A stretch of 40,441 bases of DNA, taken from assembly GCA_030148705.1 (NCBI GenBank), contig JASBSY010000024.1, forward strand, positions 85,212-125,652, written 5' to 3'. The DNA comes from Pukyongia sp. GTDB taxonomy: Bacteria > Bacteroidota > Bacteroidia > Flavobacteriales > Flavobacteriaceae. The position numbers were made by a program, and so were the translations under genes. The notes under the pieces were generated by a model that ran no database searches, had not been told where the DNA came from, and worked only from the letters and a program-made list of their open reading frames with translations. Position 1 is the stretch's first letter. The number at the start of each line of letters is the position of its first letter. This document shows, piece by piece, positions 29,896-40,441 of this stretch.

Positions 29896-31182
29896 TTATA
29901 GGGTTGACACAACTTTTCTGCAGGCTTCTACACATTTATCCAGGTCTTCGTAGTTAAGCGCATCGTTTAAAAACCAACTTTCAAAAGCACTTGGCGGTAA
30001 ATAGATCCCTTCCTTCAGCATTCCGTGGAAGAATTTTTTAAATGTGTCGTTGTTGCCTTTAGCCGAGGATTCGAAATCTACAACAGCTTCGGAAGTGAAA
30101 TGCAGTGATATCATAGATCCCAGCCTGTTAATGGTATACGGAATCTCACTATTGGAAAGCACCGACTCCAACCCCTGATGCAGGTAGGCCGTTTTTTCTT
30201 TCAACGATTCATATACATCCGGATTGTCATTAAGTTCTTCAAGCATCGCCAAACCAGCCGCCATTGCCAAGGGGTTTCCACTAAGAGTCCCCGCCTGGTA
30301 AACCGGGCCGTCAGGAGCCAAATGATTCATTATCTCGTTATTGGCTGCAAAGGCACCAACCGGTAACCCGCCGCCAATCACCTTTCCGAAAGTCACAATA
30401 TCCGCCTTTACATTAAAAAGTTCTTGCGCCCCGCCAGCTGCCAATCGGAAGCCGGTCATAACTTCATCGAAAATGAGCACTATTCCATTCTTATCACAAA
30501 GAGAACGAAGCCCTTCCAAAAATCCTTCAGCGGGCGGAATACAGCCCATATTACCGGCCGCCGGTTCTAGTATAATACAAGCAATCTCGTTAGGGTGCTG
30601 AGAGATCAGTTCTTCAACAGCATTAAGATTATTGTAGGCTGCCAATAGCGTATCCCTGGCTGTACCCGTGGTTACACCCGGGCTGTTGGGAACGCCCAGC
30701 GTAACGGCACCACTTCCTGCGGCTATCAGAAATGAATCGCTGTGACCGTGGTAACACCCGGCGAACTTTATAATCTTTTCCCTCCCGGTATAACCTCGTG
30801 CCAGGCGTATTGCACTCATACAGGCTTCGGTTCCGCTGTTCACGAATCTAATCTTCTCAATCCCCGGAACCATTGAGATTGCAAGTCGGGCAATCTCAGT
30901 TTCAATTTCTGTGGGCATGCCGAAAGAGGTCCCATCCTGTGCTTTCGCACAAACGGCATCGATAACCGGCTCATAGGCATGGCCAAGAATGAGTGGGCCC
31001 CAGGAGGCAATGAAATCGATGAGGGTATTTCCGTCGACATCCGTGATGTAAGCACCCTTGGCGCGCTTAACAAAAACAGGTTCGCCCCCAACGGATTTAA
31101 ATGCGCGAACCGGCGAATTAACCCCTCCGGGGATCACCTGTTGCGCCTCTTTGAACAGTGCGCTGCTTCTCTTATAAATCAT
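29896..31182 (-). CDS. hemL: Glutamate-1-semialdehyde 2,1-aminomutase
   Basis: A 428-aa PLP enzyme converting glutamate-1-semialdehyde to 5-aminolevulinate in C5-pathway tetrapyrrole synthesis. Motifs are '[14 protein letters not shown]', '[29 protein letters not shown]', '[10 protein letters not shown]', '[11 protein letters not shown]' and the PLP-lysine block '[15 protein letters not shown]'. The length is standard. It is the last of three closely packed minus-strand genes (7 nt after the glucosaminidase stop). No other heme genes are in the window. Confidence 0.96.
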
Positions 31183-31189
31183 GGATTCT

Positions 31190-32035
31190 CTATTGGTTTT
31201 TAACAGGGTGCAAATATAACACCTGTCCGACAGAAATCGTATTGGTTTCTAACCCATTAAACTCTTTGAGGGTTTCCACCGTCATATTATATCTTCTGGC
31301 AATACTATATAAGGTATCTCCGCGGGTGACGGTATAGGTAGAAATCTTGGAGTCGTCCGGGTTCAACATACTTACTTTATTTCCCAGCACCTGGTCGTCG
31401 AACTTGTAGAGTTGGTACTGTTCTATTATTCTGATGAGTTTATTGGGGTATTGTGGATCCGTGGCATACCCGGCTGCTTTCAGACCTCGGGCCCACCCTT
31501 TATAGTCGTCTTTCTTCAACTTAAAAAGGTCGCTGTACCGACTTCGTTGTGTTAAGAAAAGTGAATGATCCCTGAAGGAATACTTTGGATCCTTGTATTT
31601 TCTGAAGCACTCCTGTAGTTCGTCATCGTCGTGGTAAACCCGATCTCCTGTCCATTCTCTGTGACATTTAATACCGAAGTGATTATTGGCTCTTTTGGTA
31701 AGATCACCTCTGCCGGCACCACTTTCAAGTATTCCCTGAGCCAGGGTGATACTGGCCGGTATACCGTACTGCAGCATTTCTTCCATGGCGATGGTTCCGT
31801 AATTGAGAATGTACGCACTAACAATTTCCGCATAACTTGCGTTTGCAGGAGGGGTAATAAATTCACTTTCTTTTTCCTTTTTAGGCGCTCGGTCTATGGT
31901 TACAACTTCTTCTTTTTTAATAACGACGCGCTCGCTAGGTGTAGCTCTTTTCTTTTCGGCCACACGCTTCTTAGAAGAGCAGCTGTTCAGACCTATTAGG
32001 ATGATACATAATAGCACAAGGGTTCGTGAGGTCAT
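31190..32035 (-). CDS. Glucosaminidase-LysM lipoprotein (peptidoglycan hydrolase)
   Basis: A 281-aa lipoprotein (lipobox LIGLNSC, Cys19). After a Lys/Glu-rich linker, residues ~68-210 form a FlgJ/AcmA-type glucosaminidase domain with likely catalytic Glu104 in '[25 protein letters not shown]' and '[13 protein letters not shown]'. A LysM peptidoglycan-binding repeat is at ~233-277 ('[28 protein letters not shown]'). It should cleave peptidoglycan glycan strands from an envelope-anchored position. The ATG abuts the stop codon of the upstream PLP enzyme gene. Confidence 0.92.
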
Positions 32036-32962
32036 CTATTGAAGGATTTGAGGTAATTTTTTTCGTTCTAATAACATATTCATGCCTTCGATCCCCTGGA
32101 GACCGCCGGTATGAACGGCTAAAATACGGCTATTTTTTCTGAAATACCCCCGGCTCATCAGCCGGTAAATACCAAAAACCATCTTTGCGGTATAGACAGG
32201 GTCCAATAAAATTCCGTTTTTTGCCTTAAACTCATTTATGAAACGAATTAATTCCGAATCTATTTTAGCATAACCTCCAAAACTAAATTCGTCTATAAGT
32301 TTATAGTTGGTATGTGAGCTGTATTTTTGAATCACTTCCTGCTGAAAGGTTCCGTTTAAAGCTGAAAACCCGAGAACCTCTTGTTGCGGATCGGCAGAAT
32401 TAAGAATACCCGCGATTGTGCCTCCTGTACCCACGGAGACACAGATATAATCGAATTGGCTGTCGGCAGCAGTTAAAATTTCTTCGCAACCTTTAACGGC
32501 CAGTTCAGAAGTGCCGCCTACAGGAATAATATAACAATCATGACCCGTATCCTGTGTTTCCGAAAGCTTATTTTGTTGCGTTAAGGCACGGTACTGCTCC
32601 CGGTCGACAAATTTTAGTTCCATTCCGCATTGTGCGGCGAATCGCAAGGTTGGATTACTAAGTAGTTGTTCTTTTAATTCTTCTCCCCGGATAATCCCGA
32701 TTGTCTTAAAACCTTCTAACTGACCTGCTTTGGCTACAGCTGCAATATGATTAGAATACGCCCCGCCAAATGTGAGCAGGGCAGATTTATCAGTTCGCTT
32801 AAAATCTTCAATAATATATTTCAGTTTTCGGAGCTTGTTTCCCGAAATTTCTTGATGGATCTCATCCTCCCGTTTAATGTAAAACCGGTAATCTCTGTTC
32901 AGCTCAGAATTTAATTTAATTTGCTGATTTTCAGATATAAATTCTCGATGAAAAAAGTCCAT
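32036..32962 (-). CDS. PLP-dependent ACC deaminase/D-cysteine desulfhydrase-family protein
   Basis: A 308-aa fold-type II PLP enzyme. The PLP lysine is probably Lys43 in 'ISGNKLRKLKYI', and 'LTFGGAYSNHIAAVAKAG' supplies the Ser/Asn phosphate-side loop. 'VSVGTGGTIAGIL' is the phosphate-binding Gly loop. Related enzymes degrade 1-aminocyclopropane-1-carboxylate or D-cysteine, and this substrate cannot be assigned from sequence. First gene of the run ending in hemL. A TAACTTTG box (minus strand, 33002-32995) lies 32 nt upstream. Confidence 0.82.
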   Translation of the reverse strand: MDFFHREFISENQQIKLNSELNRDYRFYIKREDEIHQEISGNKLRKLKYIIEDFKRTDKSALLTFGGAYSNHIAAVAKAGQLEGFKTIGIIRGEELKEQLLSNPTLRFAAQCGMELKFVDREQYRALTQQNKLSETQDTGHDCYIIPVGGTSELAVKGCEEILTAADSQFDYICVSVGTGGTIAGILNSADPQQEVLGFSALNGTFQQEVIQKYSSHTNYKLIDEFSFGGYAKIDSELIRFINEFKAKNGILLDPVYTAKMVFGIYRLMSRGYFRKNSRILAVHTGGLQGIEGMNMLLERKKLPQILQ

Positions 32963-32994
32963 TTTTAAGCTTTCCTATAAAATTTTGATATTTT

Positions 32995-33002
32995 CAAAGT
33001 TA
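32995..33002 (-). promoter_or_regulatory. Putative -7 box of the PLP enzyme-glucosaminidase-hemL operon
   Basis: The minus strand reads TAACTTTG, matching TAnnTTTG, 32 nt before the ATG at 32962. A -33 TTG at standard spacing is not seen. Confidence 0.4.
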
Positions 33003-33127
33003 TTGAAGAAACCTTAATAATCCTTACCGTTCATCTTAGCCTGTTAAAATATCTTCAGCAAAAACACACCTCAGGTGATTTTCTTTCAGTGAAAACTGAA
33101 TATTTAACAAAAAATACCAGTCAAAAT

Positions 33128-33156
33128 TTTAACATTTTATTTGCTTAAATGTTAAA
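33128..33156. promoter_or_regulatory. 10-bp perfect inverted repeat upstream of the tail-fibre-like gene
   Basis: TTTAACATTT (33128-33137) and AAATGTTAAA (33147-33156) are exact reverse complements separated by 9 nt, upstream of a probable promoter. The same 10-mer AAATGTTAAA recurs at 35851-35860 in the next gene's upstream region. A possible site for a dimeric regulator; AT-rich composition makes chance matches easier. Confidence 0.5.
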
Positions 33157-33180
33157 CTTTATAGTCTTTCATCGATAATT

Positions 33181-33213
33181 TTTGTCATTAAACGATTTTA
33201 TATTATAATATTG
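33181..33213 (+). promoter_or_regulatory. Putative promoter of the tail-fibre-like surface protein gene
   Basis: TTTG at 33181-33184, a 21-nt spacer and TAATATTG at 33206-33213 (one mismatch from TAnnTTTG), 27 nt before the ATG. It is preceded by TTTCATCGAT (33167-33176), a block also found at 35967-35976 before the next gene. Confidence 0.5.
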
Positions 33214-33240
33214 TAGGAAATTTCTTCAACTCCCTAACTT

Positions 33241-35760
33241 ATGAAATTAACACTACTCAACCGAAAATTTCTAATTACAATTACATTTTTATTAGGAATA
33301 GGCCTACTGCATGCACAGGTAGGTATTAACACCACGACTCCCGCTAACGGAGCAATGCTGGATGTAACCAGTACAGACAAGGGTCTATTAATTCCCAGGG
33401 TTGCATTGAACTCTACCATAAGTACGAGTCCAATCACACCTGCCCCTACCACCAGTCTTCTGGTCTATAACACGGCAAACGCCGGTAGCGGCACTACAGC
33501 TGTAAGCCCGGGTTTTTACTACTGGAGCGGAACAAGCTGGATACCCATCCTAAGTAACGACTGGAAGCAAAGCGGAAATACCGGAACAACACCGGCCGCA
33601 AACTTTGTAGGAACAATAGACAACATCGGTCTCAGTTTCAGAACCAACAACACAGAGCGCCTTCAGATATCAAATACCGGTTCCTTACATGCCAGCATGG
33701 CCGGAACCGCAGCTTCACCCGTATACTCCTGGGGCACCGACCAGGATACAGGTATCTTCCGATCGAATTCAGACGAAATCTCTTTTTCCACAGCAGGTGC
33801 CTCTAGATTGACCATTACGAGTACGGGCAATATCCTGGCCTCCAACGGCGGAACTGCTGCCAACCCGTTATTCGCGTGGAGTGGTGATCCCGACAAAGGG
33901 TTCTACAGTCCTGGAGCCGATCAATTCGGGCTGGTAACCAATGGCATGGAGCGATTGAGAATCCCAAATAGCGATCAAATCTTCGCCATGGCCGACGGAA
34001 CAACAACTTTACCGTTCTTTAGCTGGAACAGCGATCCCGATACCGGCATATGGCGGAGTGGGGACGACAGGGCGAATATTTCGGCAGGAGGCCTTGAATT
34101 CATAGAATTTCGCGAAAATACCACCAGCACCTTGGTGATAAATGACACCAATGCTGATATGAACACCCGTATCGCCACTGCTAATAACGCAAATTCATTA
34201 TTCGTGGATGGTGCAAACGACAATGTCGGTCTTGGGACCGGCGCACCAAACATCAGTGCACAATTGGATATGGGCGACAACGATCGCGGAATCCTGGTAA
34301 ACCGAGTGGCACTAACCGCTACTAATTCACCTGCTCCTGTGGCATCTCCTTCCAATGGCCTGTTGGTGTTTAATACGGCCAATGCAAGCAGTGGCAGCAC
34401 CGAGGTTCTTCCGGGATTCTATTACTGGTATGGCGGACGATGGATCGCTATGGGCGGTACAGGAGGCCGCGACTGGTCCCTGGACGGAAATGCCGGAACA
34501 CTGGCAACCAACAACTTTGTTGGTACTACAGATGCGGCCGATTTAATATTTAGGACCAACGATGTAGAGCGCATGCGTTTTCTCGACACAGGAACGGCGG
34601 GAATTGCAGCAGCGCCTTACACCAATGTAGCATTACGCGTTAGCAATAGTGCCGAGCCTTTTGGTGTAGTTGGTGAAACCGGCAGTAACGGCGCCGCTAT
34701 TTATGGTATTGATACCAATGCCGGAATAGGAGTAAGAGGCGAAAATACGGGTACCGGCCTCGGACTCTACGGCTTTGCGGCCAATTCTCACGGGGCATAT
34801 ACCTACACCACATACACCGGAGGTGCTTTCCTTATAGGAGGAATTCAGGCCTGGGGTGGTGGGGCCAATGGCGCAAACGGGGTGCTTGCGGTATCCGACC
34901 AAACCTCTGTTTCGGCTTCGAACATGGGATTACGAGCCGTATCAGGGTCCACAACTTCTATTTCAACCAGTGATATATTAAATGTAGGGGTGAATACCAA
35001 TGCAACCGACCTGTCCTTATATGCAATAACAGAGGGCCCTATTACCTCCCTGGGGACTATAGAAGCAGCGAGATTCCAGACTAATTACACCGGAAATGCC
35101 CTCACTGCCGATGCCCGCGACCCGCGAGCCCAGCTGGCAGGTTATACTAATTCCAGTCAGGTTGGCGGTGGACAGATGTATTATGGCGGTTATATGTACA
35201 GTGGCGGCTCAAGTTCGAATTCTTCTTACGCCTACGCCGGTGCCAGATATAATGGGACCAACTATAAGATAATTGGGAATGGTACGGTTTCCACGATAGT
35301 AGAAGACACCAATGGCGATAAAAAAGTGATGTTCGCAGCGGAAGCCCCCGAGGTTCTCTTCGAGGATTACGGGACGGGACAATTAGTGAATGGTACGGCC
35401 AACATCCAGATTGATCCGATACTTTCGAACAACATTGTAGTTAACAATGCGCATCCGTTAAAAGTGTTCATCCAACTGGAAGGAGAATGTAATGGCGTCT
35501 TCGTGACAAACAAATCGGCAAATGGCTTTACTGTTAAAGAACTCCAGGGCGGATCTGCCAATGCGGCCTTTTCTTATCACATAGTCGCCAACAGGAAAGA
35601 TGATACCGGCAATTCCGGCACAGAAGCCTCGGCATATAGCAGCTTGCGCTTCCCCGATGCCCCGGAAGGATTTAATCCGGAGACACTTACAGCAAAGGAA
35701 ATGCAAAAATTTGATCCTCAGATAAGTGTAACTGACGCCGCGGGATCTTTGAATAATTAA
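33241..35760 (+). CDS. Large secreted mosaic protein with tail-fibre-like repeats
   Basis: An 839-aa secreted protein; signal peptide ending L-L-H-A-Q. The architecture is repetitive. A ~78-residue 'VGINTTTPxxxAxLDV ... GFYYWSGTSW' module (26-103) recurs at 328-405. Each copy is followed by a 'DW...GNxGTxxxxNFVGTxDxxxLxFRTNxxER' unit (107-143, 411-447). Three ~39-residue units with 'W..D.DTGI..S..D' lie between them (154-191, 203-241, 252-290), like those I know from phage tail fibres. The last ~90 residues before the tail ('VLFEDYGTGQLVNGTANIQIDP', 'KVFIQLEGECNGVFV', 'SYHIVANRKDD') form a C-terminal domain seen in many bacterial surface proteins. No T9SS sorting tail. It heads a group of five related secreted-protein genes. 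Confidence 0.8.
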   Translation: MKLTLLNRKFLITITFLLGIGLLHAQVGINTTTPANGAMLDVTSTDKGLLIPRVALNSTISTSPITPAPTTSLLVYNTANAGSGTTAVSPGFYYWSGTSWIPILSNDWKQSGNTGTTPAANFVGTIDNIGLSFRTNNTERLQISNTGSLHASMAGTAASPVYSWGTDQDTGIFRSNSDEISFSTAGASRLTITSTGNILASNGGTAANPLFAWSGDPDKGFYSPGADQFGLVTNGMERLRIPNSDQIFAMADGTTTLPFFSWNSDPDTGIWRSGDDRANISAGGLEFIEFRENTTSTLVINDTNADMNTRIATANNANSLFVDGANDNVGLGTGAPNISAQLDMGDNDRGILVNRVALTATNSPAPVASPSNGLLVFNTANASSGSTEVLPGFYYWYGGRWIAMGGTGGRDWSLDGNAGTLATNNFVGTTDAADLIFRTNDVERMRFLDTGTAGIAAAPYTNVALRVSNSAEPFGVVGETGSNGAAIYGIDTNAGIGVRGENTGTGLGLYGFAANSHGAYTYTTYTGGAFLIGGIQAWGGGANGANGVLAVSDQTSVSASNMGLRAVSGSTTSISTSDILNVGVNTNATDLSLYAITEGPITSLGTIEAARFQTNYTGNALTADARDPRAQLAGYTNSSQVGGGQMYYGGYMYSGGSSSNSSYAYAGARYNGTNYKIIGNGTVSTIVEDTNGDKKVMFAAEAPEVLFEDYGTGQLVNGTANIQIDPILSNNIVVNNAHPLKVFIQLEGECNGVFVTNKSANGFTVKELQGGSANAAFSYHIVANRKDDTGNSGTEASAYSSLRFPDAPEGFNPETLTAKEMQKFDPQISVTDAAGSLNN

Positions 35761-35809
35761 ACCAGTAACAATTAATGCCTGACAAACCAACCAATACGTA
35801 GATCAAATT

Positions 35810-35838
35810 ACCTGCCTGCGAATTTCATCGCGGCAGGT
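35810..35838 (+). terminator. Terminator after the tail-fibre-like gene
   Basis: ACCTGCC (35810-35816) pairs with GGCAGGT (35832-35838). After a one-base bulge, GCGA (35818-35821) pairs with TCGC (35828-35831), and TTTTGATTT follows. It separates the large gene from the three tandem paralogues. Confidence 0.75.
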
Positions 35839-35979
35839 TTTGATTTATGTAAATGTTAAAATTTCAGGACTAATTAAACAGCTGAAATAGAGCAAATAAG
35901 ATTAATTATCCCTTAATATAGGTAACATAAGTAGTTATTTTCTTACAATTCTTAATATTTTATGCATTTCATCGATTAT

Positions 35980-36013
35980 TTTGTGTTTTTATCGTATTTC
36001 TTGCATATACTTG
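35980..36013 (+). promoter_or_regulatory. Putative promoter of the tandem paralogue operon
   Basis: TTTG at 35980-35983, a 22-nt spacer and TATACTTG at 36006-36013 (one mismatch). The TTTG is preceded by TTTCATCGAT (35967-35976), as before the 33241 gene. Confidence 0.45.
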
Positions 36014-36037
36014 TGGTGCCCTAAAACATGATATCAG

Positions 36038-36844
36038 ATGAAATTAAAATTACTTATCCTACAGAGATTGGTATTTACGGTCCTGATTTACAGCTTTTCA
36101 GTATCACTATTTTCTCAGGCAGGTATAAATACCACTAGTCCTAATGGTATATTAGAAGTGAACAGCCCCGTACACGGTATCGTACTTCCCAGGGTTGCCC
36201 TAACTTCAGCAACGCTAGAAGCACCGGTTCTCAACCCACAGGGGGGAGAAATTCCGGTAGGAACTGTTGTTTATAATACCAATACTTCCACAACCGGAAC
36301 AGATGATGTCTATCCGGGCGTCTATGTTTGGTCCGGAACCCAATGGTTTCCCAAATTCGCAAAGAAACACGCCGAATTCTTTCAGCAGACAAATTATTTC
36401 CAACCGAGTTCCACTGCGGGTTACCAAAACGTTCCCAACCTGAATAACAGAACATTCACCGCGAGATATTCTGGCACATACCGCATAGAAGTGAGTATGA
36501 ATTACGGAACCGGCTATATTTCTGATGCCTCCGCCGGCTGCGACGTTGCGTTTCAGGAAGGAGTTTTCAGATTTATTTTTGACGGAAACACAGACCTGAT
36601 ACCCGCCCGGGCAATGGCTACCAGAACAGACGACGGAACCAATTACTATGCGATCTGGGAACAATTCTCCTATGTAAAGTACGTAACGCTTACTGCCGGT
36701 GCCAGTTATATTTTCGATCTCGATTTCGATCAGGCCGATTCCCCGGGTTTTGTGAATAGTGGAAATTCCGGAACAGGGAGAGGTTATATCGGAATCCCCG
36801 ATCACGTTCCCTGCTCGGTTGAATTTGTTTATATAGGCGACTAA
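36038..36844 (+). CDS. Secreted tandem-paralogue protein 1 (VGIxT N-module plus C1q-like beta domain)
   Basis: A 268-aa protein with a signal peptide ending S-L-F-S-Q. Residues ~27-105 are the 'AGINTTSPNGILEV ... NPQGG ... YNTNT ... DVYPGVYVWSGTQW' module shared with the preceding and following genes. The second half has 'FTARYSGTYRIEVSMNYGTG', 'GVFRFIFDGNTDLIPARAM', 'VTLTAGASYIFDLDFDQ' and 'GRGYIGIPDHVPCSVEFVYI', a strand-rich plan reminiscent of C1q/TNF jelly rolls by pattern only. There is no recognisable anchor or T9SS tail. The next paralogue starts 11 nt after its stop, indicating one transcript. Confidence 0.78.
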   Translation: MKLKLLILQRLVFTVLIYSFSVSLFSQAGINTTSPNGILEVNSPVHGIVLPRVALTSATLEAPVLNPQGGEIPVGTVVYNTNTSTTGTDDVYPGVYVWSGTQWFPKFAKKHAEFFQQTNYFQPSSTAGYQNVPNLNNRTFTARYSGTYRIEVSMNYGTGYISDASAGCDVAFQEGVFRFIFDGNTDLIPARAMATRTDDGTNYYAIWEQFSYVKYVTLTAGASYIFDLDFDQADSPGFVNSGNSGTGRGYIGIPDHVPCSVEFVYIGD

Positions 36845-36855
36845 AAAATATACAG

Positions 36856-37665
36856 ATGAAAAACATTACTCTTTATCATATCCTGATTTTACTGACTTTC
36901 CCCGCAAGTCTTCTTGCGCAGGTTGGTATAGGTACAACGGCACCAAAGGGAATATTGGATGTCGACAGTAGTATTCACGGCGTGGCATACCCCACAGCGG
37001 CATTGACTGCGACAAACTTAGCAACTCCCGTGGTTAATCCCCAGGGTGGAAACCTGGCAGTGGGAACCACCATTTATAATACCAATACATTCTCTTCCGG
37101 ATCCAACGACGTTGAACCCGGTATTTATTCCTGGGATGGTTCCGAATGGGTGATTCATTTTGAAAAACGGGAGCAAGTATTCTATGAACAGACATCCGAA
37201 TTAAGACCTTCATCCTCCTTAGGGTTCGAAGGTATACCCGGCTTAGCGCCTTCTGAAAACAAAACCTTCACCGCAAAATATTCCGGGGTTTATCGCATTG
37301 AACTACGAGTAAACTACGGAGGTGGCCGAGTGGTAAATAACGGAGATGTGAATGTGACCATGGCAGAAGGGGATTTCCGATTCATCTTCGACGGTAGCAC
37401 CGAACTTTTAACGGTACGCTCATTTTCTACTTACAACAATCATATTTCCGGTGGACGACAATTTGTAAACGCATGGGTGCAAACCACTAAAGTCTTTTAC
37501 GTGAATCTTACCCAGGGCCAGACATATACTTTTTCACTGGAATTCGATCAATACAACAACTCTGTGTTACAGGCAAATGGCAACCTGCTTCTATCGGATG
37601 ACGGTCGCGGATATATAGGAACGGATGTACCCTGCTATATAGAATTTGAATACCTAAGTGAATAA
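36856..37665 (+). CDS. Secreted tandem-paralogue protein 2
   Basis: A 269-aa protein with signal peptide ending S-L-L-A-Q, then 'VGIGTTAPKGILDVDSSIHGV', 'NPQGGNLAVGTTIYNTNT', 'DVEPGIYSWDGSEW'. The C-terminal half matches its neighbours: 'FTAKYSGVYRIELRVNYGGG', 'GDFRFIFDGSTELLTVRSFS', 'VNLTQGQTYTFSLEFDQ', 'GRGYIGTDVPCYIEFEYL'. The paralogues are clearly homologous but well diverged, pointing to old duplication followed by divergence. No function is known to me. It is the middle gene of the tandem trio. Confidence 0.78.
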   Translation: MKNITLYHILILLTFPASLLAQVGIGTTAPKGILDVDSSIHGVAYPTAALTATNLATPVVNPQGGNLAVGTTIYNTNTFSSGSNDVEPGIYSWDGSEWVIHFEKREQVFYEQTSELRPSSSLGFEGIPGLAPSENKTFTAKYSGVYRIELRVNYGGGRVVNNGDVNVTMAEGDFRFIFDGSTELLTVRSFSTYNNHISGGRQFVNAWVQTTKVFYVNLTQGQTYTFSLEFDQYNNSVLQANGNLLLSDDGRGYIGTDVPCYIEFEYLSE

Positions 37666-37699
37666 CATGAATTTTAACCTGAATAAAATTATAGGTCCT

Positions 37700-38524
37700 A
37701 TGAAATTTTCAAAAACATCAGTGCTATTGGCACTTTCAATCCTCTTTGTAATGGCCAGTGTGCCGGCCCAGGTGGGAATTGGAACCGATGCACCGGAAGG
37801 TATGCTCGACCTGCGAAATTCTAACGGAAGCGGATTTGTATATCCGAAGGCCGCACTTACTTCAACTCAGGTGGCGGCACCGGTAACTAATCCGAACGGC
37901 GGTAATCTGGTAGCAGGAACGGTGGTATTTAATACAAATACGACATATACCGGCGCCAACGATGTCTCTCCGGGTATTTATGCCTGGGATGGCTCCGAGT
38001 GGAACCCTCAATATCTAAGAGAGGACTCTGTAATATTTGAGCAGACAACCATGGATTTCCGAACTGTGGCCGGTGACCTTACTTATAATTCGGGCACATC
38101 AGACTGGGCAGAAATTCCTGGTTTGGGAACAGGCTCAAGTTTTACACCAAAATATACGGGAACGTATAAAATTAAAACCCGGTTTAATTTCGGCGGTGGA
38201 AAGGTAGTGGTTCCCGGAACAGGAAACATAATGATGGCAACCATGGAGGGATTGTTCCGCCTTACCTTCGATGGAACACCTTACCTTATTTATACCCATT
38301 CTTATTCGCTGTATAACAATGGCGTGTACCAGGAACAGTTTATCCATGATTCAGCCTTGACCCAATATGTTAATTTAACTGCCGGCGTAACCTATAACTT
38401 CAAACTGGAAATCGACATCTTTGTAGCAACTCATTACGAAAATGGCGGTAATTCAGGAGATGGTAGAGGCCACGTAGGTATTAATGTACCATGTTCGGTT
38501 GAATTTACCTATGTAAACGAATAA
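37700..38524 (+). CDS. Secreted tandem-paralogue protein 3
   Basis: A 274-aa protein. ATG 37700 is chosen because it gives a standard signal peptide (ending S-V-P-A-Q) and a length equal to its siblings; in-frame upstream starts exist (GTG 37658, ATG 37667). The order of blocks is the same: 'VGIGTDAPEGMLDL', 'NPNGGNLVAGTVVFNTNT', 'DVSPGIYAWDGSEW', then 'FTPKYTGTYKIKTRFNFGGG', 'GLFRLTFDGTPYLI', 'VNLTAGVTYNFKLEID', 'GRGHVGINVPCSVEFTYV'. It is the most divergent of the three, with an insertion near residues 127-145. The next gene starts 46 nt downstream. Confidence 0.76.
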   Translation: MKFSKTSVLLALSILFVMASVPAQVGIGTDAPEGMLDLRNSNGSGFVYPKAALTSTQVAAPVTNPNGGNLVAGTVVFNTNTTYTGANDVSPGIYAWDGSEWNPQYLREDSVIFEQTTMDFRTVAGDLTYNSGTSDWAEIPGLGTGSSFTPKYTGTYKIKTRFNFGGGKVVVPGTGNIMMATMEGLFRLTFDGTPYLIYTHSYSLYNNGVYQEQFIHDSALTQYVNLTAGVTYNFKLEIDIFVATHYENGGNSGDGRGHVGINVPCSVEFTYVNE

Positions 38525-38569
38525 AACCTAAATTGCCAAAACTCTAATATAAACTATATACCCCGTACT

Positions 38570-40441
38570 ATGAACAGATCCTTACTCTTTGTTTTATTGA
38601 TCAGCTTTACCTCCCTTTCCGCTCAAACACCGTGTAACGGTGGGATGGCCGGAGGTTATCCCTGTAATGGCCTGGACCTGCAGGCCTATTTTTCTTTGAG
38701 TGATCTAGGTGCCTCTTCCGGAAACGATTCCTGGGGTTGGACCGACCCCAATGATGGTAAAGAATACGCTATTGTTGGATTAAACAACAGCACCTATTTT
38801 ATCGATATCACCGACCCTGTGAATCCCCGAAGACTGGGACGTATGATGACTGCAACCTCCAATACTTCATGGAGGGATGTTAAGGTATACAACAACCATG
38901 CGTTCGTGGTAAGTGAGGCTACCAATCACGGAATGCAAGTGTTCGATCTTACCCGATTGAGAGGATTATCAACAAGTACGACCCGAACTTTTGCTGCCGA
39001 TGCACATTATACAGGCTTTAAAGCTGCCCACAACCTTATCATCAATGAAAGTACCGGCGTTGCATATATACTTGGTGCGCGATTAAATTCGGCTCCCGGA
39101 ACCAATACAGTGATCTTTCTGGATATTACTAACCCTACCAACCCGACTCTTATTGACGATTATTCAGGTAAAGGGTATACGCACGATGCTCAGGTAGTAA
39201 CCTACGACGGTCCGGATCCGGACCACCAGGGGAAAGAGATCTTTATTGGAGCCAATGAAGACGAGGTAGTGATTCTGGACGTAACGAATAAATCGAGTGT
39301 CCAGGTACTTTCTTCCATAACCTACCCTAATTATTATTATACGCATCAGGGATGGTTCACCGAAGACAAGAGATATTTCCTGTTAGGCGATGAGGAGGAT
39401 GAAGCCATGGGTGGCATAGGAAATACTAAAACAATCGTTCTCGATCTTATCGATCTGGACAATCCGAGTATCCATTTTAATTATTACGGACCTACCGCAG
39501 CAATTGACCACAACGGTTATGTGCGAGGTAACCGCTTCTACCAGGCCAGCTATTCGGCCGGAGTGCGGGTTATTAAAGTGGATGATATAGCAAACCAGAA
39601 TATGACCGAGGTCGCATCATTCGATACCTGGCCTTCATCAAATTCGGCGAGTTTTAACGGCGCGTGGAATATATATCCATATTTTGAAAGTGGAAATCTA
39701 ATCGTTTCCAACTACAACACCGGGTTCTTTATTCTAAAAGACCCGAATTACGACAATGTCGATCCGGTGGTTGTTTGTCAAAGCATTACTGCTACTCTGG
39801 ATAAAGCAACCGGCACGGTGACTATCGATGCCATGGATATAGACGGAGGTTCGACAGATAATATGGGAATCGTAAAAAGAACCATTACGGGACAGACAAC
39901 TTTTAGCTGTGCCGACGTGGGTGGGGTTTTTAATGTAACCCTTAACGTAGAAGATGATTACGGAAATACATCCAGCTGTAATACCACGGTAACTATTGCT
40001 GCAGAAACAACCGAATTCAACGGCGCTTCATGGTCTAACGGAACGCCGGATGTAGGAAGTAATGCCAAGATTGCTGCAAATTATGATATGGACAGTGGCG
40101 GCCTACCAAGCTTCGAAGCCTGTACGTGTGAGATCGATGATAATAGAACCCTTACAATAGGCGCAAATGATTATATCAGAATTGAAAAAGATATAACGGT
40201 GAATGGAAATCTTATCGTTAAACACCAGGGAAGTGTTGTTCAAACAGATCCATCGGCAGCCGTGATCAGAAATAACGGTACCGGCGCAGAGATCAACGTT
40301 GAACTCACCACGCCCCCGCTTAAGAAACGCGACTTTATGCTGATGGGTAGTCCAATGAATTTAGAGACTCGAAACGGAGTCTATAACTCGGCTTTTTTGG
40401 TGCTGGAACATACCCCTTCCAACTTTATCCCCCACCCGAGC
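38570..40441 (+). CDS. Choice-of-anchor B (LVIVD-type) surface protein, C-terminus beyond window
   Basis: At least 624 codons, open to the right-hand edge. A signal peptide ends T-S-L-S-A-Q. Residues ~25-390 fit the choice-of-anchor B/LVIVD propeller domain: 'GKEYAIVGLNNSTYFIDITDPVNPRRLG', 'HAFVVSEATNHGMQVFDLTRL', 'FIGANEDEVVILDVTN' and 'THQGWFTEDKRYFLLGDE'. An Ig/HYR-like domain follows (about 400-480: 'CQSITATLDKATGTVTIDA ... DDYGNTSSC'), then 'WSNGTPDVGSNAKIAANYDM' and a strand-rich region typical of flavobacterial surface proteins. The anchor, expected at the unseen C-terminus, is probably a T9SS tail; this is inferred from family and organism. It may share the transcript of the trio. Confidence 0.82.
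   Translation, partial: MNRSLLFVLLISFTSLSAQTPCNGGMAGGYPCNGLDLQAYFSLSDLGASSGNDSWGWTDPNDGKEYAIVGLNNSTYFIDITDPVNPRRLGRMMTATSNTSWRDVKVYNNHAFVVSEATNHGMQVFDLTRLRGLSTSTTRTFAADAHYTGFKAAHNLIINESTGVAYILGARLNSAPGTNTVIFLDITNPTNPTLIDDYSGKGYTHDAQVVTYDGPDPDHQGKEIFIGANEDEVVILDVTNKSSVQVLSSITYPNYYYTHQGWFTEDKRYFLLGDEEDEAMGGIGNTKTIVLDLIDLDNPSIHFNYYGPTAAIDHNGYVRGNRFYQASYSAGVRVIKVDDIANQNMTEVASFDTWPSSNSASFNGAWNIYPYFESGNLIVSNYNTGFFILKDPNYDNVDPVVVCQSITATLDKATGTVTIDAMDIDGGSTDNMGIVKRTITGQTTFSCADVGGVFNVTLNVEDDYGNTSSCNTTVTIAAETTEFNGASWSNGTPDVGSNAKIAANYDMDSGGLPSFEACTCEIDDNRTLTIGANDYIRIEKDITVNGNLIVKHQGSVVQTDPSAAVIRNNGTGAEINVELTTPPLKKRDFMLMGSPMNLETRNGVYNSAFLVLEHTPSNFIPHPS

Follow-up and report, generated by a model that had tools for sequence, protein, structure and literature searches.

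The window, i.e. the whole stretch of 40,441 nucleotides from Pukyongia sp. analysed here, ends with five consecutive open reading frames on the plus strand, as a sequence-only reading had described. The first (33241–35760) encodes a secreted mosaic protein of 839 amino acids, in which an N-terminal module (N-module) is followed by tail-fibre-like repeats, a second N-module and a conserved C-terminal domain. The first N-module, including the signal peptide, lies at 33241–33552 (E 5e-16) and the internal one at 34219–34446 (E 7e-12). Three genes for small proteins follow on the same strand. Position 1 (36038–36844) encodes 268 residues with a signal peptide, an N-module and a head (36347–36841), position 2 (36856–37665) encodes 269 residues with a head at 37150–37662, and position 3 (37700–38524, from the ATG at 37700) encodes 274 residues with a head at 38003–38521, or 288 residues (37658–38524) from an alternative GTG start upstream at 37658. 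These genes had been described as a tightly packed trio of paralogues, and they are: the gaps are 11 nt and 34 nt (the latter counted from ATG 37700), and the similarity is full-length, the second and third proteins being 45% and 39% identical to the first.

Export had been predicted for all five proteins, and each has a Sec-type N-terminus with a glutamine after the likely cleavage site, as judged by eye. The N-module, thought to be common to four of them, was recovered by search in all four, with two copies in the 839-residue protein. It was rejected as a marker of this system because it is too widespread: in the window's genome, 11 of the 16 matches at E ≤ 0.01 lie outside the five genes. 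The 839-residue gene and the trio are separated by 277 nt containing a strong hairpin (35803–35843, plus strand; −20.7 kcal/mol, z −5.7), after which comes UUUAUGUAA. None of 200 shuffled sequences was as good, and the hairpin is absent from the list given by a separate consensus scan; a terminator or a processing site is possible. A scan with Rfam for a known RNA element gave no match, and a scan for consensus promoters, which did not rise above background (19 found vs a shuffled mean of 15.1), was disregarded.

The anchored protein

The fifth gene (38570–40441, plus strand) is still open at the end of the window, which is also the end of the contig of 125652 bases, and it is therefore truncated. 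After the signal peptide it encodes a choice-of-anchor-B propeller at about 38630–39742, in agreement with the earlier assignment (TIGR04312, 506.6 bits vs a cut-off of 100). A HYR-like stretch is weak (E 0.19). At 40019–40441 the window holds just the start of a C-terminal half homologous to RemA and RemZ (CH), which is seen whole in complete orthologues.

RemA and RemZ of Flavobacterium johnsoniae are T9SS substrates, and RemA is a gliding adhesin. In phmmer searches, the C-terminal ~550 residues of the complete orthologue from G006 (1056 residues) matched RemZ (7.6e-38) and RemA (6.8e-27), aligning from residue 425 (RemZ) or 497 (RemA) onward. Complete orthologues end in a T9SS type A sorting domain, and the window's genome encodes SprA, the T9SS translocon. 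By homology of its C-terminal half, the anchored protein is assigned to the RemA/RemZ class, which has characterised members. The N-terminal half, however, is unlike RemA and RemZ, and is a TIGR04312 propeller in one version of the locus (class A) and DUF1028 with MAM in the other (class B). The likeness to the choice-of-anchor-B family likewise lies in the N-domain, which here is joined to a C-terminal half of the RemA/RemZ class and linked to the trio. According to the relevant passages of the papers, RemA is Fjoh_0808 (PMC5445135), and tagged RemA is fixed or mobile on the cell surface and is also released (PMC12618676); in passages of both and of PMC10994853, RemA-class proteins are treated as single proteins.

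Because CH genes occupy the slot described below in four loci of other Flavobacterium (L147, L149, L157 and L162), the slot was expected to correspond to the F. johnsoniae remA locus. This was rejected: in G573, taken as F. johnsoniae from a 100% match to a RemZ stretch, five CH genes in a row extend from remZ to remA elsewhere in the chromosome, and no head gene was detected among them.

The window's genome has a second CH gene, which encodes subtilase, Calx-beta and cleaved-adhesin domains and adjoins nqr-like genes (named by eye). The last 141 bases of the window's contig (C6) are identical to the end of C4, part of this second gene, and C16 and C5 have 141 bases in common at matching ends. 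Identity rises from about 40–60% to 100% at the contig break, and the shared lengths, which are 141, 95 and 127 in three different assemblies, resemble the word lengths of an assembler. The simplest reading of these sequences would be a near-identical CH core in two genes, i.e. recent gene conversion. Such near-identity is not constant, the two CH cores of the complete genome G006 being only about 69% alike. The missing C-terminus of gene 5 very probably lies at the start of contig C16, together with a sixth, 609-residue module gene, because the urocanase flank of the slot follows there.

A slot with two versions of the block

A family scan of 397 genomes for heads at E ≤ 1e-12 yielded 24 class-A and 16 class-B genomes, the heads of the two classes being distant homologues. 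Four genomes are on both lists; in one of these, G119, the class-B profile hits a class-A head, and only weakly. Regions of carriers other than G407 were fetched and annotated. In line with the view that these genes form a system, the same gene order is found in many Flavobacteriaceae, among them Altibacter lentus, Aureitalea sp. L0-47, Marinirhabdus gelatinilytica, Halomarinibacterium sedimenti and Aequorivita soesokkakensis. The block mostly occupies a conserved chromosomal slot. Its upstream flank in the window consists of a hemL-like gene (29896–31182), a LysM/glucosaminidase-like gene (31190–32035) and a D-cysteine-desulfhydrase-like gene (32036–32962), all on the minus strand, named by eye and with orthology established by search. 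The other flank often consists of a short gene, urocanase and a gene for a 178-residue lipoprotein-like protein. In 40 loci the genes are co-oriented, and neither the trio genes among themselves nor the trio and the anchored gene are more than 77 nt apart, so that an operon is predicted. Additional heads can be as far as 308 nt away.

In class A, three or more heads are followed by the propeller with CH, and in class B two or three heads are followed by DUF1028, MAM and CH. The class-B domains were identified with Pfam on two genes and with custom profiles on the rest, and CH was not detected in 1 of the 12 class-B loci (G132). Class-A heads stand directly before the propeller gene in 28 distinct genomes, and class-B heads directly before the DUF1028 gene in 12 loci of 11 genomes. 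Among these, no hybrid of A heads with DUF1028 or of B heads with the propeller was seen. Within the 397-genome scan, the pairing holds for 20 of the 24 class-A genomes, where the proposed co-occurrence with choice-of-anchor B is thus borne out, and for 10 of the 16 class-B genomes. Close linkage in part accounts for the perfect A/B pairing; only four tree-independent pairs stand on supported branches, all of them concordant (p 0.125). Repeat genomes (L113, L114, L115, L117, L131, L198, L204, L211, L216, L217 and L219), recognised partly by heads 98% or more alike, were counted once, and L118 and L201 stand outside the 34-genome table, their anchored gene being out of view.

The exceptions are of several kinds. 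The remaining four class-A genomes are G212 and G298, in which no anchored gene accompanies the trio, and G321 and G407, with one weak match each. L140 has a propeller–CH gene in the slot and no trio, and L150 has two class-B heads and no anchored gene. The class-B trio stands beside an unrelated protein of 1116 residues in G016 and G286. Lower-scoring or single head matches in G162, G241, G321 and G345 are accompanied by neither anchored gene. Both classes may also occur together: G239 has in a row six A heads, which are two sets of positions 1–3, then the propeller gene, three B heads and the DUF1028 gene, and in G108 and G201 one class is in the slot and the other lies beside further CH genes.

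The 839-residue protein had been regarded as a core component, but among the 22 full-trio genomes of the 397-genome scan just 7 have it before the trio. Where it precedes heads in the loci surveyed, it is 92–626 nt away. In its tree, the window's genus forms one clade across A-I, A-II (the two subtypes of class A) and B (six rows, 100/100), and class clustering is slight (7 changes vs 10.2 shuffled; 3 of 200 as low). This gene tends to follow the host lineage and is an optional neighbour of the cassette. Its AF2 model is poor (pLDDT 58), and a fold search with it, which gave no match at E ≤ 0.001, was disregarded. Thus, the claim that the genes belong together stands for the trio and the anchored gene, but not the claim of one fixed structure, the block being an exchangeable cassette in at least two versions.

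Head positions and replacement of the cassette

One of the three small proteins, that of position 2, was modelled, and its predicted structure shows a C1q/TNF-like jelly-roll head. The small proteins are accordingly predicted to end in such a jelly roll. Curated C1q or TNF models of Pfam and NCBIfam gave no match to the heads up to E 1, and PDB profile searches gave no match of note. Unlike C1q, TNF-like and BclA/BC2L-C-type heads, these heads show neither a sequence-profile match nor a visible collagen stem, the N-terminal part being the Bacteroidota N-module.

The three positions are old orthologues that diverged anciently. When 96 class-A heads of 29 genomes were placed in a tree by a quick method, they grouped by gene position with 7 label changes vs 50.0 when shuffled, and the position groups are supported at 83–92%. 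An earlier, smaller tree recovered only position 3 as a single group, with two changes required for each of positions 1 and 2. Each position divides into subtypes A-I (15 genomes) and A-II (14 genomes), the three window proteins being A-I, and in 29 of 29 genomes the three positions have the same subtype. The labels were read from this tree, so that the clustering in it is not independent, whereas the agreement between positions is. The heads of G004, split over two contigs, were excluded, and its A-I label refers to similarity only. The propeller subtype does not track A-I and A-II, requiring 7 changes in 27 genomes, at least 5 of them forced by supported branches. Heads and propeller are therefore unmatched below the class level, and in this sample recombination has split the heads from the propeller subtype, not head from head. 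Inserts in heads are confined to position 2 in the loci seen: MAM is present in six class-B loci, other class-B second genes being without it, and three class-A genomes have a PA14-like stretch with Pfam scores below the curated cut-off. As far as these sequences go, the positions do not appear to be interchangeable, as expected for a hetero-oligomer.

The most striking property of the locus is its replacement as a block, the core of which is the trio with the anchored gene. Among seven genomes of the window's genus, the window's own G000 and also G003, G004 and G006 have A-I, G001 has A-II, and G002 and G005 have B. In a tree of flank genes from 36 genomes, made by a careful method, accounting for the labels A-I, A-II and B takes 13 changes vs 17.4 when shuffled (2 of 200 as low), and A vs B alone takes 8. 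This tree was relied on over a first one of 23 rows, in which the labels were scattered at random (12 changes vs 12.3). For L055 (G003), the flank of which is cut, both used proteins of L056 (G004), a close relative of the same class. The larger tree leaves aside L202, which has both classes, and L150, L062, L066, L193, L199 and L205, which are off-slot, have the flank out of view or have no anchored gene. In the CH tree, which omits rows under 300 residues including the window's copy, most CH regions of the window's genus group together, and some clustering by class is seen (10 changes vs 12.2; 14 of 200 as low). An earlier comparison of CH regions likewise kept most of the genus together, but placed the class-B slot gene of G005 with other class-B genes. 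Since the labels are less scattered than by chance, and the trees of the 839-residue protein and of CH also show a degree of grouping by class, either part of the inheritance has been vertical or the exchanged segment can at times be longer. Collectively, there has been some vertical inheritance but many replacements of the cassette, and replacement most often concerns a core made up of the heads and the N-terminal part of the anchored gene, while the arms are more stable but not immovable. An invertible, phase-variable locus was set aside, as long inverted repeats are lacking in the window: none of 20 nt or more was found at 32900–40441, and four weak ones were found in L202.

Serotype-like allelic replacement loci are a general class with a fixed slot, conserved arms and a replaced core. 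The present locus resembles them in these features, but its core consists of protein heads and a T9SS-anchored protein instead of polysaccharide genes, and in the window it is without long inverted repeats.

Possible roles of the cassette

The gene order, domain content, pairing, positional orthology and replacement observed at this locus may be best explained by a four-gene exchangeable surface cassette, in which a heteromeric head acts with a RemA-class protein on a variable ligand; we favour this reading tentatively. The anchored protein would be exported by T9SS and displayed on the surface, and the three small proteins, one of each, would form a single hetero-oligomeric head joined by the N-modules, comparable in this to C1q with its three chains. 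The head and the N-domain of the anchored protein would cooperate, which would keep the classes matched. The device might bind a variable ligand such as a glycan, other cells, or algal or particle surfaces. Swaps would use the conserved arms for homologous recombination and would be driven by shifting selection, i.e. a change of ligand, phage, grazers or kin discrimination. Export of the heads is the weakest link of this model, given that no T9SS sorting domain was recognised in the trio by Pfam or NCBIfam. A bolder form of the model, in which three distinct chains inherited as a unit make one asymmetric C1q-like head, act with a T9SS-displayed RemA-class protein and, together with the matched domain of that protein, pass between species at a fixed slot in a serotype-like manner, is somewhat unlikely as a whole.

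Homotrimers are common among C1q/TNF-like domains, and each small protein might instead be an adhesin of its own, forming a homotrimer with its own ligand, the four genes being merely co-transferred neighbours. Exactly three heads are found in 18 of the 24 class-A genomes of the scan, but other carriers have extra or tandem heads (4, 5, 5 and 6 copies) and some class-B loci have two, as independent adhesins would allow, and close linkage alone would keep such neighbours together. However, the positions have remained distinct orthologues in 29 genomes with no mixing of A-I and A-II despite the forced propeller changes, and inserts are restricted to position 2; independent adhesins are thus an unlikely explanation. 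An ordinary secreted hydrolase or adhesin operon without a common complex, in which DUF1028 or the propeller would be enzymatic or binding and the heads would bind substrate for polymer scavenging, appears improbable. DUF1028, MAM, the weak PA14-like stretch and the propeller would fit polymer handling, and T9SS cargo includes peptidases and sugar hydrolases according to the abstract of PMC11205867, but neither a glycosidase nor a SusCD gene was noticed in the block in ORF lists and domain scans. In open-access full text, no paper on choice-of-anchor B or DUF1028 was found from which an activity could be taken.

The cassette might also be a kin-recognition or polymorphic incompatibility locus, the identity of which would determine whether a cell adheres to, or tolerates, a given neighbour. 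Several discrete versions in one slot, swapped as blocks within a genus, the matched classes of head and anchor, and the surface-type domains would all suit such a locus; the domain scans made recognised no toxin or immunity gene in the block, and we regard this as decidedly improbable. Descent from phage tail-fibre or tailocin genes would account for the matches of the 839-residue protein to PHROG tail-fibre families (E 1.1e-7 and 1.7e-4) and for the head fold being frequent in predicted viral proteins, with 440 matches at E ≤ 0.001. All five genes nevertheless have signal peptides by eye, complete anchored orthologues have a T9SS sorting domain, and those flank genes to which a name could be given resemble housekeeping genes (phage models were scanned against the five genes only). 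On the PHROG and viral-fold searches and these flank genes, a phage or tailocin origin was set aside as very improbable indeed.

The kinds of component in the favoured cassette are already known, namely a RemA-class T9SS surface protein, C1q-like heads and exchangeable surface loci, and it is quite possible that the complex as such is new. This combination of genes was not found named in the open-access literature, which is weak evidence, as subscription papers largely fall outside that scope. Here, across a bacterial family, a RemA-class protein is genetically linked to a set of three genes for predicted C1q-like heads, and the combination exists in interchangeable versions. Should this set prove to be one complex, it would offer a natural series of head and anchor pairs for probing the ligands of surface proteins, and it would raise for T9SS the question of how partner proteins without a sorting domain are exported. 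The sequences suggest an exchangeable recognition or attachment device in marine flavobacteria, and the pattern of exchange points to strong selection on surface identity in these bacteria and makes it testable.

Position-2 heads and module proteins

Among the three small secreted head proteins that precede the anchored gene (the trio), domain inserts were seen in position 2 only. Position-2 heads of class B, the class with a DUF1028+MAM anchor, carry a MAM insert at loci L059, L061, L124, L129, L130 and L202 of the compared genomes, while those of class A, which has a propeller anchor, gave a sub-threshold PA14-like match at L195, L202 and L205, and the insert site within the head differs between the two. 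The C-terminal domain of the 839-aa module protein BIG (window 33241-35760) is strongly conserved and is present in other Bacteroidota proteins too; its Pfam scan gave no match, and a PDB search gave none of note. A sixth module gene (609 aa; L105:573-2402, start of contig C16 of the window's genome, G000) combines the N-module with a BIG-type C-terminal domain and comes after what is very probably the C-terminus of the anchored gene. Several further genomes also carry module genes at this position, some of them similar and some different.

A possible further cassette version and other slot contents

In G016 (L062) and G286 (L215), a class-B trio lies outside the conserved chromosomal slot and adjoins an unrelated 1116-aa protein with a C-terminus that looks T9SS-like by eye; this combination may be a third cassette version. 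In several Flavobacterium species (L147, L149, L157 and L162), the slot, identified by its urocanase-side or hemL-side flank, contains BIG-like genes and large proteins with the RemA/RemZ-homologous C-terminal half of the T9SS-anchored protein (CH), without a head trio; the CH protein of L149 is RemA-like (2.4e-91).

CH genes and contig ends

The same CH half occurs in a protein with subtilase, Calx-beta and cleaved-adhesin domains (L103:13846-17352; orthologues in L100, L107 and L108), a domain content taken from a scan of the L103 copy only. Nqr-like genes adjoin this gene. Across the seven genomes compared from the window's genus, the nqr-side gene was recognised as a CH gene in six. Contig-end comparison indicated that two CH genes of G000 share a near-identical core, inside which contigs C6, C4, C16 and C5 end; at these breaks, including the window end (40441), the ends are identical over 141 bases in pairs, C6 with C4 and C16 with C5. 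The G005 and G002 assemblies likewise break within CH genes. These breaks suggest gene conversion among T9SS surface-protein genes.
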